A DNA stretch of 64,000 bases from an uncultured Clostridia bacterium (GTDB taxonomy: Bacteria > Bacillota > Clostridia > Oscillospirales > QAKW01): NCBI GenBank assembly GCA_944385895.1, contig CALWYZ010000006.1, positions 1-64,000 of the forward strand, read 5' to 3'. The position numbers and the translations under genes were made by a program. Below, piece by piece: positions 379 to 8,665 of the stretch (position 1 is its first letter; every line of letters starts with the position of its first letter). The notes beneath the pieces were generated by a model that was not told where the DNA came from, did no database searches, and worked only from the letters and a program-made list of their open reading frames with translations.

Positions 379-1410
379 TTACTTAAGCGTTTCAGCTATA
401 TCATATATTAACTTTTCGGTTTTCTCCCAGCCCAGACAAGGGTCTGTAATGGATTTACCGTATATATGCTCCCCAATTTTCTGTGCGCCGTCTTCAATAT
501 AGCTTTCGATCATAAGACCTTTGACCATCTTTCTTAAATCAGGGTTGTGGTTGCAGCTGTGAACAACATCCTTGGCAATACGAACCTGCTCAAGGCACTG
601 TTTTGAAGAGTTAGCGTGATTGGTATCGATTATAACCGCCGGATTTTCAAGACCGGACTTGCCGTACAGTTCATGTAGGTTGACAAGATCCTCATAGTGG
701 TAATTTGAAATATTTTTACCGGAGAAGTCAACATAACCGCGCAAAATAGCATGGGCAAAAGGATTGCCGTTGCTTACGACCTCCCAGCCGCGGTAAATGA
801 ACATATGCTTGTTTTGAGCTGCGGAAATAGCGTTCATCATGATTGAAAGATCACCGCCGGTGGGGTTTTTCATGCCGACGGGAATGTCAAGACCGCTTGC
901 CGTAAGCCTGTGCTGCTGGTTTTCAACAGAACGCGCGCCGATAGCAACGTATGACAGAAGGTCGGACAAATATCTGTGATTATCGGGATACAGCATTTCA
1001 TCAGCACATGAGAATCCGTATTCTGAAAGCGCGCTCATATGCAGATCGCGGATAGCAACTATGCCCTTGAGCATATCGGGATTTTCGTCCGGATCAGGCT
1101 GATGCAGCATACCCTTGTAGCCGGTGCCGTTGGTACGCGGCTTGTTGGTATAGATACGCGGAATTATGATAATTTTATCCGAGACTTTGTCCTCCACCCT
1201 GCGCAGTCTTGAAATATAATCAAGTACCGCCGTGCGGTTGTCGGCTGAGCAGGGACCGATAACAAGAATAAACTTATCCGATTCGCCTTTAAATACTTTT
1301 GCAATCTGCTCATCTCGGCGTTTTTTCTGCTCCGCCATTTTTTCGGAGACAGGATACTGCTGCTTAATAACCTGAGGAATGGGAAGTTTTCTTAGAAAAT
1401 TCATGTTCAT
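379..1410 (-). CDS. 3-deoxy-7-phosphoheptulonate (DAHP) synthase, class I AroF/AroG type
   Basis: This enzyme condenses phosphoenolpyruvate with erythrose 4-phosphate, the first step of the shikimate pathway in the cytoplasm. The 343-residue length and the motifs GPCSAD (about residue 53), IPRIYTNKPRTNGTGYKG and the LHQPDP stretch are those of the E. coli AroF/G/H subfamily, with no fused chorismate mutase or ACT domain. The ATG overlaps the stop of tyrA as ATGA, and AAAGGAG lies just upstream. It is the last gene of the operon, so the first enzyme of the pathway is encoded last. The feedback-sensing class (Tyr, Phe or Trp) cannot be told from sequence reading. Confidence 0.95.
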   Translation of the reverse strand: MNMNFLRKLPIPQVIKQQYPVSEKMAEQKKRRDEQIAKVFKGESDKFILVIGPCSADNRTAVLDYISRLRRVEDKVSDKIIIIPRIYTNKPRTNGTGYKGMLHQPDPDENPDMLKGIVAIRDLHMSALSEYGFSCADEMLYPDNHRYLSDLLSYVAIGARSVENQQHRLTASGLDIPVGMKNPTGGDLSIMMNAISAAQNKHMFIYRGWEVVSNGNPFAHAILRGYVDFSGKNISNYHYEDLVNLHELYGKSGLENPAVIIDTNHANSSKQCLEQVRIAKDVVHSCNHNPDLRKMVKGLMIESYIEDGAQKIGEHIYGKSITDPCLGWEKTEKLIYDIAETLK

Positions 1411-2279
1411 TTGTCGTTTTTCTCCTTTTTGTCAAATCTTTGCCGGCGATTTGTAGATGTGCGCATCATATCGCGCATGCCCTCACGGTCACCGTTTTTA
1501 AGTTTTGTATATAACTCGTCAAACGAGCGTCTGAACTTATCCATTTCCAGAAGCAGAGGCTCACGGTTGAGTAAAAACAGCTCGCTCCACATATCGTCGT
1601 TTATTTTCGCTATTCTTGTAAGATCGCGGAAAGAGTCGCCGGTATAGTGCTCCAGACCCCGAAAATCGTTGCAGCACATCAGAGACACTGCTATGCAGTG
1701 CGTAAGCTGGGACAGGTACGCTATCATTTCATCATGCATCTGGGGGCTCAGTTCCGACACGTCTGCAAACCCGAGAGTCTTTCCAAGATCACGGCAAAGC
1801 TCAATAGCTGACGCCGTGTTTTTTGATGTCGGAACAACTATATAATTGGCCTGACTGAACATTTTATCGTTTGCATTTTCCACGCCGTATACTTCCTTAC
1901 CTGCCATCGGGTGCGCGGCAATAAATTCTATGTCCGGTCGAAGAAATTCCTGTATTTCAAAAACGATACAGCACTTAACGCCGGTGACGTCGGTAATAAC
2001 ACAGCCGGGTTTGAAATATTTTTGGTTGTCAATAAGCCATTGCTTGAATACGTTAGGATAGAGCGCAAAAACGGCAATATCCGCCTGTCCTATAAGCTCG
2101 GGATCTATCTGAGTGGTGCCTTTATCTATTATCCCGTGTTCCAGCGCGTAGTCGATTGATTTCTGTGACCGCGTTATGGCGCTCACTTTAAATCCCTGTC
2201 TTTTAAGAGACATTGCGTAGCTGCCGCCCAGAAGTCCTAGGCCTACAATCAGAATATTCATGTTTTTGTCAAGCTTCAT
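1407..2279 (-). CDS. tyrA: prephenate dehydrogenase
   Basis: It oxidatively decarboxylates prephenate to 4-hydroxyphenylpyruvate using NAD(P), committing carbon to tyrosine. The N-terminal nucleotide-binding motif GLGLLGG lies near residue 13, and HPMAGKE near residue 123 is the conserved substrate-binding region. At 290 residues it is a monofunctional TyrA without chorismate mutase and with no clear ACT domain. The ATG at 2279 has GAGAGG about 8 nt upstream. It is separated from aroA by a 344-nt spacer full of short GC-rich repeats, the only large gap between structural genes of the operon, and overlaps the DAHP synthase gene by 4 nt. Confidence 0.93.
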   Translation of the reverse strand: MKLDKNMNILIVGLGLLGGSYAMSLKRQGFKVSAITRSQKSIDYALEHGIIDKGTTQIDPELIGQADIAVFALYPNVFKQWLIDNQKYFKPGCVITDVTGVKCCIVFEIQEFLRPDIEFIAAHPMAGKEVYGVENANDKMFSQANYIVVPTSKNTASAIELCRDLGKTLGFADVSELSPQMHDEMIAYLSQLTHCIAVSLMCCNDFRGLEHYTGDSFRDLTRIAKINDDMWSELFLLNREPLLLEMDKFRRSFDELYTKLKNGDREGMRDMMRTSTNRRQRFDKKEKNDK

Positions 2280-2623: not shown

Positions 2624-3877
2624 TCAGTCCTCTAGTCTGCGTATTTGCGCGCCCAGCCCCTCAAGTCTTTCAAAAAAGTCAGGCATGCTCTTGTTAACAG
2701 CCTGAGCGCCGACTATTGTTCCGCCTGTCACAGTGCAGAGTACAGACAGTGCCATGACAATCCTGTGGTCGTTGTGTCCCGTAAGCGGCTGTGTGGGTTT
2801 TTTGAGACCGCAGCCGACAGTTATGCTGTTTTCGTGCACAGAGACTTTAACGCCCATTTTGGAAAGCTCGTCTGCCATTGCAGCGCCTCGGTCGCTCTCT
2901 TTTATTTTAAGCCGCCTTGTCCCTGTCAGAACACCGCCGTTATTTGCTGCCATTGAGGCCATCAGTACCGGAGCCAGATCCGGGCAATCGGACACGTCTA
3001 TAACAGGAGCGGATTTTGTAATAAGCGAAAAATGCTCCAGACATACCCTGTCTCCCTGAAGACTGTTAGTATCTACGCCTGTCACTTCAATTTCGTGACC
3101 GACTGTGTTGAGTGCATAGAAAAAGGCTGCGTTTGACCAGTCGCCTTCAACCGTATAGTTCACAGCGCGATAGTGTTGAGATCCGGGTATATATATGCTG
3201 CCGTCAAAAATATCCGTCGTAACCGAGAAAGTCTTCAGTGCCGACTGTGTCAGCTTTATATACGGCAGACTTTCAATTTTGCCCTCCGTCATTATTGTAC
3301 TGTCTTTGGCCAAAAGCGGCAGTACAAACATAAGTCCGCTTATAAACTGGCTTGATATGTCCGCCTGTACATGAAAAGTGTCGGGTTTAAGTCTTCCGCA
3401 CACTGTGACGCTTTGGTCTGATTGTTCAAAAACAAATCCGTATTTTTTGCAAAGTGTTTCGTACACCGAAAGAGACCGTGAAAACAGCCGGCTTGTTCCG
3501 CACAGTGTAAACCTCTGCCCTGTCACAAGGCAAAGCGGTATAATAAATCTCAGTGTACTGCCGCTCTCGCCGCACTGTATTATGCGTTCGTTCTGTCCGT
3601 TAAAAGCATCCGCACAGCTCCCGGCGCTGTCGGCAATAAGTTCGTTGTAGGCGTTGGAGCCGTTTATCGTTATGCTGTTAGGGTTTTTCGTTATAATAGC
3701 CCCCAGTGTTTCAAGGGCGCAGGCGGTAGCATTTATATCATCTGAGTAGGATATGTTTTCAATGCTGCATTTTTGTCCCGACAAAAACGCGCATATAAGC
3801 GCGCGGTGCGCCATGCTTTTTGAAGGCGGAGCGTTTACCTTTCCGTGTATTTTTCCTGCGCTTATCTCAACTATCAA
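2624..3877 (-). CDS. aroA: 3-phosphoshikimate 1-carboxyvinyltransferase (EPSP synthase)
   Basis: It transfers the enolpyruvyl group of PEP to shikimate 3-phosphate. The N-terminal PSKSMAHRAL (residues 18-27) carries the substrate-binding lysine, LKIKESDR near residue 324 is the conserved second-domain motif, and GHNDHRIVM follows. The 417-residue length is normal. The start is TTG with AAAGGAG about 8 nt upstream; an ATG-initiated start in a sensible place is not present, and the reading frame overlaps the end of the aroE-aroK fusion by 11 nt, implying translational coupling. Its stop codon abuts the repeat array that separates it from tyrA. Confidence 0.95.
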   Translation of the reverse strand: MIVEISAGKIHGKVNAPPSKSMAHRALICAFLSGQKCSIENISYSDDINATACALETLGAIITKNPNSITINGSNAYNELIADSAGSCADAFNGQNERIIQCGESGSTLRFIIPLCLVTGQRFTLCGTSRLFSRSLSVYETLCKKYGFVFEQSDQSVTVCGRLKPDTFHVQADISSQFISGLMFVLPLLAKDSTIMTEGKIESLPYIKLTQSALKTFSVTTDIFDGSIYIPGSQHYRAVNYTVEGDWSNAAFFYALNTVGHEIEVTGVDTNSLQGDRVCLEHFSLITKSAPVIDVSDCPDLAPVLMASMAANNGGVLTGTRRLKIKESDRGAAMADELSKMGVKVSVHENSITVGCGLKKPTQPLTGHNDHRIVMALSVLCTVTGGTIVGAQAVNKSMPDFFERLEGLGAQIRRLED

Positions 3878-5111
3878 AGCCGTACTCCTTTAAAATCAGT
3901 TCTGTAATGGCAGCTATATCCGCATCAGCGTCAATCTCAATGTCGCAGCTTTGGCGGTAGACGGGCAGGCGTGTTTCATATAGCTTTGCAAGCTTTTTTC
4001 TGTCATCTGACAGCGGACGCGTGTCGGTCACGGGCAGTTTGTCTATAGGACGGTTTATAAAGCAAAGCCTTCCGTTTTGTTTTAAAGCCGTGACGTTGTG
4101 CCTGTTTAAAACGGCACCGCCGCCTGTTGCGATTACCGCCTGGCACTGACAGCTCACAGAGTCTATTACCTCAGATTCTATCTTTCTGAAGAGCGGTTCT
4201 GAGCCTTTAGCAAAAATATCCGGTATCGACATTTTTTCCCGCTCAACGATTTTTTCATCAATGTCAATGAATTCTCTGCCAAGCCGCTGTGCGATTATCT
4301 GTCCGAGCGTGGTTTTTCCGCAGCCCGGCATACCTATAAGTACTATGTTCTGTTTTTCACGCAGAATATCGTCGTATACCCTGTCGATATCCCGCCTGCA
4401 AAATTTTTCACCGCAGAATTTTTCCGCTGCAAAAACTGCTTGTGCCACAAGCATATACAGTCCTCCGGCGGCAGGTATTCCTCTGTCTAGTGCCTGCATG
4501 ACAAGGCGGGAGCGCAGCGGATTGTATACGGCATCAAGCACTCCGCAGACATTCGGGAAGCGGTCAAGCTGTACCGCCGTATCATCAAGCTTTGGAAACA
4601 TGCCGCAGGGAGTGGTGTTTATAATTATTTCAGCATCGCTGTGGCAGGCATACAGCTGATCATAGCTGATGCAGCCGTCTTTTGCGGATCTGGAAACCCG
4701 GTATGCCTCCAAGGCGCCGCAGTGCTCAGCGACAGCCAGCGCAGTTTTTGAGGTGCCGCCGCTGCCGAGTATAACTGTCTTTTTATTTTTAAAGTCTATT
4801 CCCGCATTCTGTGCCAGCGCTTTCATACCGGAAAAATCGGTGTTGTATCCGTAAAGCATGCCGTCTTTGTTTACAATGGTGTTGACAGCGCCGATATCTT
4901 TTGCGGTGTCGCTGATATGGTCAAGGTATGGGATAACATCCTGTTTATAAGGAATTGTTACGTTTATTCCTTTAAACATCCTTGAGCGCATAAACTCATC
5001 AAGCTGTTGCGGTTCCAGCTCTAAAAGCTGATAGTCATAATTGCAAAGCCTTGAGTGTATTGTTTTTGAAAAGCTGTGAGCAAGCTTTCTGCCTATGCAT
5101 CCGTATTCCAT
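3867..5111 (-). CDS. fused shikimate dehydrogenase - shikimate kinase
   Basis: One 414-residue chain joins two consecutive-in-pathway activities. Residues 1 to about 250 are AroE: SFSKTIH substrate-binding motif, catalytic Lys in TIPYKQD (K56), Asp in NTDFSG (D92) and the nucleotide-binding GSGGTSKT near 116. Residues about 253-414 are AroK: Walker A GMPGCGKT at 260-267, a DIDEKI stretch and GGGAV. AroE reduces dehydroshikimate and AroK phosphorylates the shikimate formed, so the fusion could channel shikimate. The ATG follows TGAGGTGA. Fusion of AroE with AroK is known in some bacteria, but the usual arrangement is two genes. Confidence 0.95.
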   Translation of the reverse strand: MEYGCIGRKLAHSFSKTIHSRLCNYDYQLLELEPQQLDEFMRSRMFKGINVTIPYKQDVIPYLDHISDTAKDIGAVNTIVNKDGMLYGYNTDFSGMKALAQNAGIDFKNKKTVILGSGGTSKTALAVAEHCGALEAYRVSRSAKDGCISYDQLYACHSDAEIIINTTPCGMFPKLDDTAVQLDRFPNVCGVLDAVYNPLRSRLVMQALDRGIPAAGGLYMLVAQAVFAAEKFCGEKFCRRDIDRVYDDILREKQNIVLIGMPGCGKTTLGQIIAQRLGREFIDIDEKIVEREKMSIPDIFAKGSEPLFRKIESEVIDSVSCQCQAVIATGGGAVLNRHNVTALKQNGRLCFINRPIDKLPVTDTRPLSDDRKKLAKLYETRLPVYRQSCDIEIDADADIAAITELILKEYGFDS

Positions 5112-5115
5112 CTTG

Positions 5116-6198
5116 TCACCTCAGCCAGTCCGCACCGAATCTTGAAGCCAGTAAGTCGACAACAGTTAAAGCACAGACGCTGTCCACAACAGTGCGTGCG
5201 CGATGTACGATGCAGGGATCGTGTCTGCCCTTTGCGCTGATAACTGTGTTTTGACGTGATTTAAAGTCGACAGTCTGCTGCGGTTTGAAAATAGTCGGTG
5301 TCGGTTTAATTGCGGTGCGCATAACTATCGGCATACCGTTTGTAATCCCGCCGTTGATACCGCCGTTTGAGTTTTTGGTTGTGACGACATTGCCGTTCTT
5401 AATCACAAACGGATCGTTTGCAGCTGAAGCGCGCATTTTTGCGATTGCGAATCCGTCGCCGAATTCTACGCCCTTTACTGCCGGCACCGAAAACACGGCG
5501 TGTGAGAGCATGCCCTCAACGCTGTCAAACCACGGGTCTCCCACACCGGCGGGCATACCCATTATTACAGTTTCCAAAATACCGCCGACGCTGTCGCCGT
5601 CGTTTTTTGCGCAGACTATTGCATCCTTCATCTTTTGAGCCGCCGTATCGTCAAGCGCTGCAAAATCGGTATTGTCCAGCTTATCAAAATCCTTTTTAAA
5701 ATCGTCAAACGAACGGTCGCTGATACCGGCACATTCGCTGATGTGTGTTGCGATACTCACGCCTTTTTTCAAAAGTATTTGTATGGCAACAGCACCCGCC
5801 GCCGTAAGAGCAGCCGTGACTCTTCCGCTGAAATGCCCTCCGCCTCGGTAGTCCTCAAACCCGTTATATCTTTTAAAAGCCGTATAATCGGCATGTCCCG
5901 GGCGTGCTTTTCCGTAGTCGTAGTCTTTGGAGCGTGTGTCACTGTTGGGAATGATGACCGTTAACGGCGTACCGCATGTCCTGCCATCAAACACGCCGCT
6001 TATTATCTGAAACCGGTCTTGTTCGGTGCGCGATGTTGAAATGCTGCCGGCAGGTCTGCGCTTATCAAGCTGACGGCTGATAAAGCTATGATCGATCTCC
6101 AGTCCTGCAGGCAGTCCGTCAATGACGCAGCCTATATATGCGCCGTGACTTTCGCCGAATATAGTAACGCTGACGCTGTTTCCGAAAGTGTTTTTCAT
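5116..6198 (-). CDS. aroC: chorismate synthase
   Basis: It converts EPSP to chorismate by phosphate elimination with reduced FMN. GESHG near residue 14, the RPGHADYTAFKRYN stretch and the DYRGGGHFSGR segment are all family signatures, and the 360-residue length is typical. The ATG overlaps the stop of aroB as ATGA. As in other Firmicutes, reduced flavin must be supplied by another enzyme or by an intrinsic reductase activity, which cannot be told here. It lies in the centre of the aromatic operon, four bases before the aroE-aroK fusion. Confidence 0.96.
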   Translation of the reverse strand: MKNTFGNSVSVTIFGESHGAYIGCVIDGLPAGLEIDHSFISRQLDKRRPAGSISTSRTEQDRFQIISGVFDGRTCGTPLTVIIPNSDTRSKDYDYGKARPGHADYTAFKRYNGFEDYRGGGHFSGRVTAALTAAGAVAIQILLKKGVSIATHISECAGISDRSFDDFKKDFDKLDNTDFAALDDTAAQKMKDAIVCAKNDGDSVGGILETVIMGMPAGVGDPWFDSVEGMLSHAVFSVPAVKGVEFGDGFAIAKMRASAANDPFVIKNGNVVTTKNSNGGINGGITNGMPIVMRTAIKPTPTIFKPQQTVDFKSRQNTVISAKGRHDPCIVHRARTVVDSVCALTVVDLLASRFGADWLR

Positions 6199-7196
6199 AT
6201 TCTTAGTTCTCCCGCAAGCTCTCTGAGCCTTGTTTTATCCAGCTTTTGAGTTTCAAAGCTGCCTATCTGTCCGACATATATGCCGGTTATCGTATCCCCT
6301 GATTTTTTCTTGTCATGAAGCATGGCGTTTACAAGTTTATCCGGGTCTGCCTCAAAGCGTGTGGGAAGCCCGAGTCTTTCCAGCACCTTAGCAAGCCGTG
6401 CGCGTACAGAGTCAGAGCACATTGGCAGCATACCTATCGCTACGCATTCACCGTGATACAGTTTCCCGCCGCTTTCGCTTTCAACAGCATGCGCCAGCGT
6501 GTGTCCGAAATTTAAAACACGGCGCAGTCCGGATTCGTGTTCGTCCTGCTCGACAACACGTTTCTTTATTAGCAGACTGCGGTAGATTATAGTATCTATG
6601 TCCGCGCTGTCCGATTCTATCATTTCAAACAGCTCTCTGTCGCATGTGACCGCCATTTTTACCGCTTCTGCAAGACCGTTGGAAATTTGGCGTTTTGGAA
6701 GGGTGGACAGTGTGTCCGGGTCGATTATAACTGCACGGGGAGGATAAAACGCTCCCACTATGTTTTTATAGCCTTCAAAATCTATCGCGGTCTTGCCGCC
6801 TATTGATGAGTCGACCTGTGAAAGGACGGTTGTCGGTATGTTGTAAAAATCAATACCGCGCATGTAGCATGCCGCTGCAAAGCCGGTAAGGTCGCCCACG
6901 ACGCCTCCTCCGACCGCTGCGGCACAGTCATAGCGTGAAAGCCCCATGTCGGTGAATTGTTTCAGAAGCATTGCAAAGTTTTCAAGGCTTTTTGAGCTCT
7001 CACCCTGCGGCAGGGTTATGATCCTTGCAGATTTGCACTGGTCCGCTATCAGCTTTGAATAGCTTTCCGGTACGCCCGTATCGGTAACGATGGCGACAGT
7101 TCGGTCAAGCTTCAGTATTTTTCCGGCATTTTGCAGGGCGCCTCGCTTAAGTGTTATTTCATAACCGCCTGACGCGGTTTTAACAGGTATTATCAT
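6195..7196 (-). CDS. aroB: 3-dehydroquinate synthase
   Basis: It cyclises DAHP to 3-dehydroquinate with NAD and a divalent metal. The NAD-binding stretch GGGVVGDLTGFAA near residue 92, the PTTVLSQVDSSIGGKTAID motif and the metal-binding histidines in NFGHTLAHAVE mark the family. The 333-residue length is slightly short but complete. The ATG at 7196 has GGAGAGA 5 nt upstream. That RBS-start block is the last member of a 40-bp repeat array lying between aroB and pheA; the upstream copies carry degenerate versions of the same RBS and start. Confidence 0.95.
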   Translation of the reverse strand: MIIPVKTASGGYEITLKRGALQNAGKILKLDRTVAIVTDTGVPESYSKLIADQCKSARIITLPQGESSKSLENFAMLLKQFTDMGLSRYDCAAAVGGGVVGDLTGFAAACYMRGIDFYNIPTTVLSQVDSSIGGKTAIDFEGYKNIVGAFYPPRAVIIDPDTLSTLPKRQISNGLAEAVKMAVTCDRELFEMIESDSADIDTIIYRSLLIKKRVVEQDEHESGLRRVLNFGHTLAHAVESESGGKLYHGECVAIGMLPMCSDSVRARLAKVLERLGLPTRFEADPDKLVNAMLHDKKKSGDTITGIYVGQIGSFETQKLDKTRLRELAGELRI

Positions 7197-7200
7197 ATTG

Positions 7201-7350
7201 TCTCTCCGCTAATGTAAAATCATTAAATATTATCGTATCGTCTCTTAGCTAATGTAAAATCATTAAATATTATCGTATCGTCTCTTAGCTAATGTAAAAA
7301 TTTTAAACATTATCGTATCGTCTCTTAGCTAATGTAAAATTTATTAAATG
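7201..7350. repeat. 40-bp direct repeat, 3.75 copies, between pheA and aroB
   Basis: Three full 40-bp units start at 7201, 7241 and 7281 and a partial one at 7321, each beginning TCTCTYNGCTAATGTAAAA and ending TATCGTATCG. They fill the pheA-aroB gap and reach into the last codons of pheA (stop at 7344-7346). Read on the transcribed strand, each unit contains AAGAGACGATACGATAAT, closely resembling the true aroB start region GGAGAGACAATATGATAAT. The array therefore looks like local amplification of the aroB translation-start region, with the extra copies having lost the RBS and ATG. Unit 2 is nearly identical to unit 1, so expansion seems recent. Confidence 0.95.
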
Positions 7351-8432
7351 GAAATTTCCTTTTCAAAAGAGCCTACGACCTTAACGTCCATGCAGTGAGG
7401 AGCGAGCTGGCTGAGCATGCGCCTGCCCTCAAAGGAATTGATACATCCCTCGCCCTCGGCATAAAAGTAATAGCTCCAGCTCAGTTCTTTTGTCGGACGG
7501 CTCTTGAGTGCGCGAAGGTTAAATCCGTTCTCGCCGATAGCAGAAACCGCTCGTCCCAGACAGCCGGGTTCATTTTTGACGGTAAACAGCATAATAAAGT
7601 TATTGTCGTTAATGCTCTGAGCTTTCTGCGCTCTTGAAAACACTGCAAAGCGAGTGGTGTTTTTACCGCTCTCATTTATGTGGGACTGTAAAATTTTAAG
7701 TCCGTATTTGGCCGCCGCGTCTGTGCTTCCGATAGCTGCAAGCTCGTGCTTTCCCTCTTTTGCGACAAGTTCTGCCGCAACTGCCGTATTTACCGCTTCT
7801 ATGCTTTCAAAGCCATGGCGTCTGATATACCCTGCGCACTGTCCCAGAGCCTGTGGGTGGCTGATGACGCTTTTCACCTGATCCATTGTAGTGCCTTTGA
7901 CAGCAAGCAGGTTTTGAACAATCTCAGCCTGGTATATCCCGTTTATGTACAAAGGTCCGAAAAACGCAAGATCCATTACCTGTCCCACATCTCCGTTGTA
8001 GCTGTTTTCTATCGGAAGGAGCGCACAGTCGCACTCTCCGTTTACAACCGCGTCATATGCGGCTTTAAAGTCGGGACAGCTGACTGTCTGACCCTGCGGG
8101 AATATCTTTTTTGCTGCTATATCCGCAAATGCCCCCGGTACGCCGCTGTAAGCGATTTTCATACCGGTTATCAGTCTGCGCTGATAGTTTTTGGATATAT
8201 CCATTTCACTCTGAAGAAAATTCACATAAAATTCACGCAGAGTATCGTCCGAAATAAACTCACTGTTGCGGGTTATGACCTGAGCCTCTCTTGCCGTATC
8301 CTCTATCGGCATACCGCGCTGAGCCTTATAGAGCGCCACCTCCCGCACCGCCGACATGCGCTTTTCAAATAACTTTGCCATTTCTTTGTCACATTCATTT
8401 ATTTCCCTGCGTGCTTTTTCGATATCCGCCAT
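7344..8432 (-). CDS. pheA: bifunctional chorismate mutase / prephenate dehydratase (P-protein)
   Basis: It turns chorismate into prephenate and then phenylpyruvate, the committed path to phenylalanine. Residues 1 to about 88 are an AroQ-type chorismate mutase (paired helices with the EINECDKEMAKLFEKRM stretch), about 91-275 the prephenate dehydratase with the catalytic-site GKNTTRF motif, and about 285-360 an ACT domain with LKSRP, the Phe-sensing site known in this family. The ATG follows AAGGGAG. It is the first structural gene of the operon and lies behind the leader-peptide attenuator, so both transcription (attenuation) and activity (ACT feedback) probably respond to aromatic amino acids. 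Confidence 0.95.
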   Translation of the reverse strand: MADIEKARREINECDKEMAKLFEKRMSAVREVALYKAQRGMPIEDTAREAQVITRNSEFISDDTLREFYVNFLQSEMDISKNYQRRLITGMKIAYSGVPGAFADIAAKKIFPQGQTVSCPDFKAAYDAVVNGECDCALLPIENSYNGDVGQVMDLAFFGPLYINGIYQAEIVQNLLAVKGTTMDQVKSVISHPQALGQCAGYIRRHGFESIEAVNTAVAAELVAKEGKHELAAIGSTDAAAKYGLKILQSHINESGKNTTRFAVFSRAQKAQSINDNNFIMLFTVKNEPGCLGRAVSAIGENGFNLRALKSRPTKELSWSYYFYAEGEGCINSFEGRRMLSQLAPHCMDVKVVGSFEKEISI

Positions 8433-8467
8433 GTATTTTCTTACTCCCTTAAAATTTTCAGAATAAA

Positions 8468-8515
8468 AGCCCGCAATCCTATACTTTTTAAAATGAGTAT
8501 AACTGATTGCGGGCT
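8468..8515 (-). terminator. intrinsic terminator of the aromatic operon attenuator
   Basis: AGCCCGCAATC (8468-8478) and GATTGCGGGCT (8505-8515) form a perfect 11-bp stem, extended by an internal TATAC/GTATA pairing, and on the transcribed strand the stem is followed by TTTTATT. It lies between the leader peptide stop and the pheA ATG, about 36 nt before that ATG. That position means it must be conditionally bypassed for pheA-aroF expression. Confidence 0.85.
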
Positions 8516-8530
8516 ATCTATCGTATTCAG

Positions 8531-8547
8531 CGCTTGATTTTCAAGCG
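8531..8547 (-). promoter_or_regulatory. pause-type hairpin overlapping the leader peptide stop
   Basis: CGCTTGA and TCAAGCG form a perfect 7-bp stem with a 3-nt loop covering the last leader codons and stop. In leader-peptide attenuators the first hairpin at the leader stop pauses polymerase. Whether it also pairs alternatively with the terminator arm needs folding. Confidence 0.5.
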
Positions 8548-8603
8548 GATTTTGCGCACAGACAGTCCGTATATGAATAGTAGTAAAATCGATTGATATA
8601 CAT
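8541..8603 (-). CDS. Tyr/Phe-rich leader peptide of the aromatic operon
   Basis: A 20-codon frame starts with ATG 25-30 nt after the predicted transcription start, preceded by AAAGAAAGG. Its sequence begins MYINRFYYYSY, so six of the first eleven residues are Tyr or Phe, including three consecutive Tyr codons (TAC TAC TAT). It ends at a TGA inside a small hairpin and is followed by a strong terminator before pheA. This is the expected design of a leader peptide whose translation stalls when charged tRNA-Tyr or tRNA-Phe is scarce, allowing readthrough. It is too short for usual gene callers. Function is inferred from composition and position. Confidence 0.8.
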   Translation of the reverse strand: MYINRFYYYSYTDCLCAKSA

Positions 8604-8636
8604 TGTAAATCCGTGCACCTTTCTTTATTTTTAATA

Positions 8637-8665
8637 ATAATACATCAATCTTCCCTGTTTGTCAA
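8637..8665 (-). promoter_or_regulatory. promoter of the aromatic operon
   Basis: TTGACA (8660-8665) and TATTAT (8637-8642) are separated by exactly 17 bp on the minus strand. Transcription should begin near 8630, about 27 nt before the leader peptide ATG, giving a leader of about 200 nt. Confidence 0.85.

Follow-up and report, generated by a model that had tools for sequence, protein, structure and literature searches.

The window, that is, the whole 64,000-nucleotide stretch of DNA from an uncultured gut Clostridia bacterium that was analyzed, carries an aromatic amino acid biosynthesis operon on the minus strand. The preliminary description of this DNA has a complete aromatic operon running from pheA to the DAHP synthase gene. 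Protein family matches confirmed this content, which is pheA-aroB-aroC-aroE/K-aroA-tyrA-aroF:

7344 to 8432, minus strand: pheA, chorismate mutase-prephenate dehydratase (NCBIfam; start at 8432)
6195 to 7196, minus strand: aroB, 3-dehydroquinate synthase (TIGR01357)
5116 to 6198, minus strand: aroC, chorismate synthase (TIGR00033)
3867 to 5111, minus strand: aroE-aroK fusion (shikimate dehydrogenase / shikimate kinase)
2624 to 3877, minus strand: aroA, EPSP synthase (TIGR01356, below the curated cutoff)
1407 to 2279, minus strand: tyrA, prephenate dehydrogenase
379 to 1410, minus strand: aroF/G-type DAHP synthase (TIGR00034)

The pheA-aroB gap (7188-7349) is occupied by four tandem repeats of 40 bp that are 90% alike; a G+C-rich tandem array with units of 19-64 bp, unusual inside an operon, lies between aroA and tyrA (2368-2619), and another, of 20-bp units, directly follows the DAHP synthase gene (67-349). 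The T-box previously noted before tyrS is real (42632-42409, minus strand; 63 bits, E 2e-11, core AGAGGTGGTACCGC), although it falls below the Rfam gathering score of 93, so that standard Rfam annotation would miss it. No leaders for other amino acids were found at biosynthetic genes in the window, an absence that is weak evidence because the scan is strict: its limit on the length of the terminator loop excludes even the pheA leader. The segment 53056-53197 gives a weak match to AaHKsRNA41 (31.5 bits; gathering score 97) that resembles a 3'-end terminator, and its minus strand holds a Tyr/Phe-rich mini-ORF with an adjacent terminator.

The region upstream of pheA contains the following features, listed in the direction of transcription:

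8637 to 8665, minus strand: sigma-A-type promoter, as read from the sequence (TTGACA 8665-8660, 17-nt spacer, TATTAT 8642-8637)
8609 to 8618, minus strand: segment 1, GUGCACGGAU, adjoining the leader ribosome-binding region and pairing with GUCUGUGCGC of segment 2 (8563-8554)
8541 to 8603, minus strand: predicted leader peptide ORF MYINRFYYYSYTDCLCAKSA (ATG 8603 to TGA 8541; 20 codons), conserved in four congeners
8577 to 8588, minus strand: putative sensing run F6-Y7-Y8-Y9 (TTT TAC TAC TAT), with Y8 and Y9 as codons -4 and -3 before segment 2 in the codon profile of 35 leaders
8555 to 8569, minus strand: segment 2, antiterminator 5' strand CGG-A-CUGUCUGU-G-CG, inside leader codons 12-16
8531 to 8547, minus strand: 7-bp hairpin CGCUUGA-AAA-UCAAGCG over the leader stop codon, nested in the antiterminator loop
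8510 to 8523, minus strand: segment 3, antiterminator 3' strand CG-AUAGAUAG-C-CCG, overlapping the terminator 5' arm (8515-8510)
8462 to 8515, minus strand: intrinsic terminator (3:4), stem 8515-8468, then TTTTATT

The consensus promoter and the 20-codon Tyr/Phe frame of the preliminary description are thus both in place, and a TTGACA-17/18-TAnnnT promoter precedes nearly all sibling leaders. The aromatic residues of MYINRFYYYSYTDCLCAKSA are Y2, F6, Y7, Y8, Y9 and Y11 (6 Tyr/Phe in 20 codons), and the predicted ORFs of the family are rich in codons for the products of the pathway (242 Tyr/Phe among the 766 residues of 35 leaders). The claim of a ribosome-binding site is borne out in part: site-like sequences are present, but AGAAAGG is located 14 nt from the ATG, and the nearer ACGGA is weak. 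The leader in this genome therefore has a ribosome-binding site that is weak or badly spaced, which counts against an attenuator; good AGGAG sites are present in many other members of the family.

The 11-bp terminator stem with a T tail just before pheA was recovered as described, occupying 8515-8462 between the leader and the first structural gene, with a G+C-rich stem (AGCCCGCAAUC/GAUUGCGGGCU) extended by an AU-rich upper stem. The leader folds at -54.7 kcal/mol compared to -34.1 +/- 4.0 kcal/mol for dinucleotide shuffles (z -5.1). Terminator and leader were found in all 4 species of the genus, with 2 compensatory pairs in the terminator stem, and a scan for a Tyr/Phe-rich ORF combined with a Shine-Dalgarno sequence and a terminator yielded 1 off-target match in ~180 kb of DNA from relatives, both strands included; given this recurrence, chance can be excluded. 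The hairpin reported at the stop codon does exist (8547-8531). We rejected it as the key switch because it lies within the antiterminator loop and its conservation stops at the genus; in G009 and G011, its place is retained and its sequence altered.

An alternative pairing with the terminator arm, which the attenuator reading calls for, was identified as the helix between segments 2 and 3. This helix is the best fold when the RNA upstream of the Tyr codons is blocked and the terminator 3' arm is removed, and segment 3 takes in the first six bases of the terminator 5' arm; the folding and the compensatory changes both indicate that antiterminator and terminator are mutually exclusive. When the position of the ribosomal A site is varied (L001 fold, MFE of the free RNA), the antiterminator forms in full with codons 5-7 in the site, loses part of its pairing at codon 9 and no longer forms from codon 11 on. 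Antiterminators built by hand, in which UGCG was paired with the CGCA of the terminator arm, were abandoned for lack of conservation (L004).

The 38-nt leader core shows only two differences among the four congeneric species, both at synonymous third positions (ACG/ACA and TGC/TGT). Both of these changes (G to A and C to T) are compensated in segment 3 (C to T and G to A, respectively), and the first is compensated again in the terminator 3' arm (arm 4), where GCGGG becomes GCAGG. Thus, one base of segment 3, being matched in both segment 2 and arm 4, tracks its two alternative partners, as the mechanism requires. Compensation on this scale was reached in 31 of 500 shuffles, which with four sequences is no more than suggestive. 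In a 14-sequence alignment built without reference to structure, compensatory changes were detected in 7 of the 11 antiterminator pairs, with 92% of the cells paired; none of 500 shuffles equaled this result, and every slid control was far worse. For example, one antiterminator pair is G-U in the genus of the window, U-A in the next genus and G-C in others. An alignment of 35 sequences gave 8 of 11 compensated pairs (36 cells; 0 of 500 shuffles), with p values that are optimistic because the members are related and because the structure guided this alignment; for the latter reason, the 14-sequence covariation is the cleaner result. Furthermore, the pairing of segments 2 and 3 exceeds that obtained when the peptides are recoded with synonymous codons (Fisher 1e-17 for 25 leaders that are not independent); in this test, L004, L005, L030 and L035 were individually no better than chance.

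A third helix, between segments 1 and 2, is present in the MFE fold (duplex p 0.008 in the window). Pairing of the Shine-Dalgarno region with segment 2 exceeds shuffles at p<0.05 in 18 of 31 leaders (joint Fisher 1.7e-19, the 31 leaders not being independent). With this pairing found across the family, segment 2 has two rival partners, segments 1 and 3, and segment 3 likewise has two, segments 2 and 4. The E. coli attenuators of trp and pheA are arranged in this way, and that of pheA follows the same 1:2/2:3/3:4 logic as the element described here. Judging from its parts and its three mutually exclusive helices, from the covariation of antiterminator and terminator, and from the codon spacing, promoter and gene association considered in this work, the element is very probably a classical 1:2/2:3/3:4 ribosome-mediated transcription attenuator of the aromatic operon.

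Under the proposed mechanism, when there is no translation, segment 1 would pair with segment 2 and the 3:4 terminator would form. With charged tRNA-Tyr scarce (or tRNA-Phe too, via the mixed run), the ribosome would halt with Tyr8 or Tyr9 in the A site and with its leading edge at approximately the start of segment 2, which would then pair with segment 3; the resulting 2:3 antiterminator would let RNA polymerase read through into pheA...aroF. When both Tyr and Phe are plentiful, the ribosome would proceed to the stop codon, mask segment 2 in its 3' half and so leave the terminator free to form. We infer these dynamics, along with the size of the signal and its nature, in which Tyr weighs more than Phe. 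The 1:2 helix could possibly add a further feature, closing the leader to late ribosomes.

The distribution of Tyr and Phe codons bears on the amino acid that is sensed. With the codon containing the first G of segment 2 taken as codon 0, codon -4 encodes Tyr in 32 and Phe in 3 of the 35 leaders, and codon -3 encodes Tyr in 28 and Phe in 5, or 60 Tyr and 8 Phe among the 70 codons combined; from codon 0 onward, both residues are scarce. The Tyr codons thus lie at a fixed distance from the antiterminator strand, such that a ribosome stalled on them would leave segment 2 free: with codon -4 or -3 in the A site, the leading edge of the ribosome would lie roughly where segment 2 begins. Together, the position of the Tyr run and the ribosome footprint point to Tyr first and Phe second, and the signal is probably Tyr-tRNA with a contribution of Phe. 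The mixed Tyr/Phe run is, however, compatible with either amino acid as the signal and counts against reading the element as a Tyr attenuator. The same attenuator could instead sense Phe, with the Tyr codons incidental: pheA, the first gene here, leads to phenylpyruvate, the 35 leaders contain 115 Phe residues alongside 127 Tyr, and the FYF leader of Corynebacterium glutamicum aroR reportedly answers to Phe only (PMC11802643). We consider this alternative unlikely given the preponderance of Tyr at the two codons correctly spaced from segment 2, the single Phe and five Tyr in the leader of the window, and the inclusion of tyrA and DAHP synthase in the operon.

Tyr is encoded in the 35 leaders by both TAT (83 codons) and TAC (42), so it is the residue, rather than the exact RNA, that is kept. 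For the stretch after the Tyr run, the opposite applies: a GGGCUGCCCGU-like segment is read in another frame in 3 of the 35 leaders (KGCPSS in L149 and RAARLM in L150, for example) and hence is conserved as RNA. This observation, together with the covariation of the nucleotides of the stretch with segment 3, renders highly improbable a nascent-peptide arrest of the tnaC/ermC type, in which a conserved C-terminal D-C-L/S would stall the ribosome on a free metabolite, even if the residues C-terminal to the Tyr run are conserved within the genus.

An initial combination of a pattern scan and an examination of pheA-proximal DNA appeared to confine the leader to the genus; this was wrong, the leader of the relatives being located further upstream. 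In other genera, the operon opens with a class I/II aminotransferase gene (PF00155), and the leader precedes this gene, ~1.3 kb from pheA, or else precedes the DAHP synthase gene (PF00793). Examples of such leader peptides include MYINRFYYCGSDFCSACLCKR, MADMIHRFYYCNTDFLSTADCER, VKMTANLFYYYFTTDCLCAAA, MAGFYFYYFMNADCRNAD, MFGKEFYFYYYFSTDCLPSFKNAAE and MKNKFYFYFYYFKKGCPSSVISED; the orthologous leaders accordingly possess the Tyr/Phe runs and terminators anticipated in the preliminary description. Taken together, the antiterminator, the orthologous leaders and the fixed Tyr spacing support, at the level of sequence comparison, its reading of the element as a Tyr/Phe leader-peptide attenuator.

The order and the class were searched with a covariance model (R1), and a second model (R2) was built from 35 members. 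Among sampled genomes, R1 detected the element in 35 of 388 from the order and in 6 of 245 from the class; R2 detected it in 7 of 391 class genomes, four of them outside the order, and, among 388 genomes across the phylum, only in the window's own family. All these counts are lower limits because the search filters were strict. Every one of the 33 inspected loci is at the head of an aromatic operon, next to pheA (11), the aminotransferase gene (14) or the DAHP synthase gene (8), as read from the first residues of the protein, with examples of each type confirmed by Pfam; L171, with pheA, is a 34th such locus. Recurrence at the heads of aromatic operons only, the antiterminator covariation and pairing beyond synonymous nulls leave a constitutive terminator accompanied by a small chance ORF, with no regulation at all, as the least probable account of the element.

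Several other leaders were noted in the course of these searches. G127, which belongs to a different family of the order, has the Phe/Tyr leader MRQPKFLSKEFFFYYQGFYFSAGNFCCNKTS and a strong terminator of its own immediately ahead of pheA (L035, 1220-1500); pairing of segments 2 and 3 above chance was not found in this leader, which we did not assign to the family and which is perhaps of independent origin. L091 and L096 carry Phe-rich leaders, MY(V/I)MNARFFNGFF(G/D)FSFF(E/G)(R/K)SDLCCRE(S/K), before a DAHP synthase with a ferredoxin-like domain, and in these, GUUGCCGUG copies the terminator 3' arm. L059-L063, from five species of one genus, form a sister subfamily with leaders of the RFYYYxGTDRRNSV type and a different antiterminator (CGGAUCGC/GCGAUCCG in some); they were not detected by the covariance model at the cut-off used.

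No Rfam model of this kind of RNA or any other, the amino acid leader families (Phe_leader, Leu_leader and others) included, reached the gathering score in the window or at 20 sibling loci, the best model at the pheA leader being Leu_leader with 13 bits. At the pheA leader, neither the T-box core motif nor a match to the T-box covariance model (RF00230) was found, and the core motif is also absent from the leader loci and from up to 20 kb around pheA of the relatives. These results, along with the retention of Tyr in spite of TAT/TAC variation, leave very little room, even less than for peptide arrest, for a metabolite riboswitch or T-box-like RNA with an accidental short ORF, notwithstanding the structured leader with its terminator, the commonness of T-boxes in Firmicutes and the presence of one before tyrS in this very window.

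Dozens of the sampled genomes, belonging to many families, carry the attenuator, yet it is absent from every RNA catalogue searched, Rfam 15 included. A literature search found no description of this family or of a Tyr-sensing leader peptide; most subscription journals were outside that search, so the novelty is provisional. A more far-reaching proposition, for and against which we see the chances as even, is that this is an undescribed family of Tyr-sensing attenuators spanning several Clostridia families, that it is the main RNA control of their aromatic operons and the first leader peptide with tyrosine as the primary signal, and that its 1:2 helix closes the ribosome-binding region of the leader, restricting the sensing to ribosomes that load right behind RNA polymerase. 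In this one genome, tyrS appears to be under a T-box and the entire aromatic operon under a leader-peptide attenuator, two different sensors of tyrosine supply. The 35 aligned sequences, with their strong covariation, provide a ready model for annotating aromatic operons in gut metagenomes, and the existence of a tyrosine-sensing leader peptide becomes a directly testable question.

Tyr and Phe genes of Firmicutes are usually said to be under T-boxes. A 2005 comparative survey placed tyrosine under T-boxes and phenylalanine under attenuators (PMC1262725). The statement of the preliminary description that Firmicutes mostly use T-boxes or TRAP needs adjusting: leader-peptide attenuators are already documented there for His and Leu, with Phe as a candidate (PMC2965389, PMC9413887, PMC5794164, PMC8632094). 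Leader-peptide attenuation as such has long been known, from trpL and pheL of E. coli and from trpL and aroR of C. glutamicum (PMC11802643, PMC4046766). The pheL-pheA attenuator of E. coli similarly places a leader peptide before a bifunctional CM-PDT gene (PMC11802643); it is, however, a Phe leader of gammaproteobacteria, and no Rfam leader model reaches threshold here. The aroR leader of C. glutamicum aroF likewise is a mixed Phe/Tyr leader before a DAHP synthase (PMC11802643, PMC4046766) but belongs to Actinobacteria, has a short FYF run and is reported to respond to Phe, not Tyr (PMC11802643). In Acholeplasma, uORFC-13-1 upstream of aroF combines a uORF, a promoter, a terminator and an aromatic gene, as does the present element, but contains Phe codons, is confined to Acholeplasma and environmental DNA, and has no antiterminator described in the text (PMC8632094). 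The His attenuators proposed for hisS/hisZ in Firmicutes (PMC2965389), including those of the Bacillus cereus group, and for the his operons of Peptostreptococcaceae and Erysipelotrichales (PMC9413887) are also of the classical type within the usually T-box-dependent Firmicutes but pertain to histidine, other operons and other lineages. The Leu-rich ilv-leu attenuator of Staphylococcus aureus is another leader-peptide system of Firmicutes, one with genetic support, that differs in its dedication to branched-chain amino acids and to Staphylococcus (PMC5794164). Given these precedents for His, Leu and candidate Phe, the attenuator of the aromatic operon represents a new family rather than a new principle: apparently, a known mechanism in an undescribed family.
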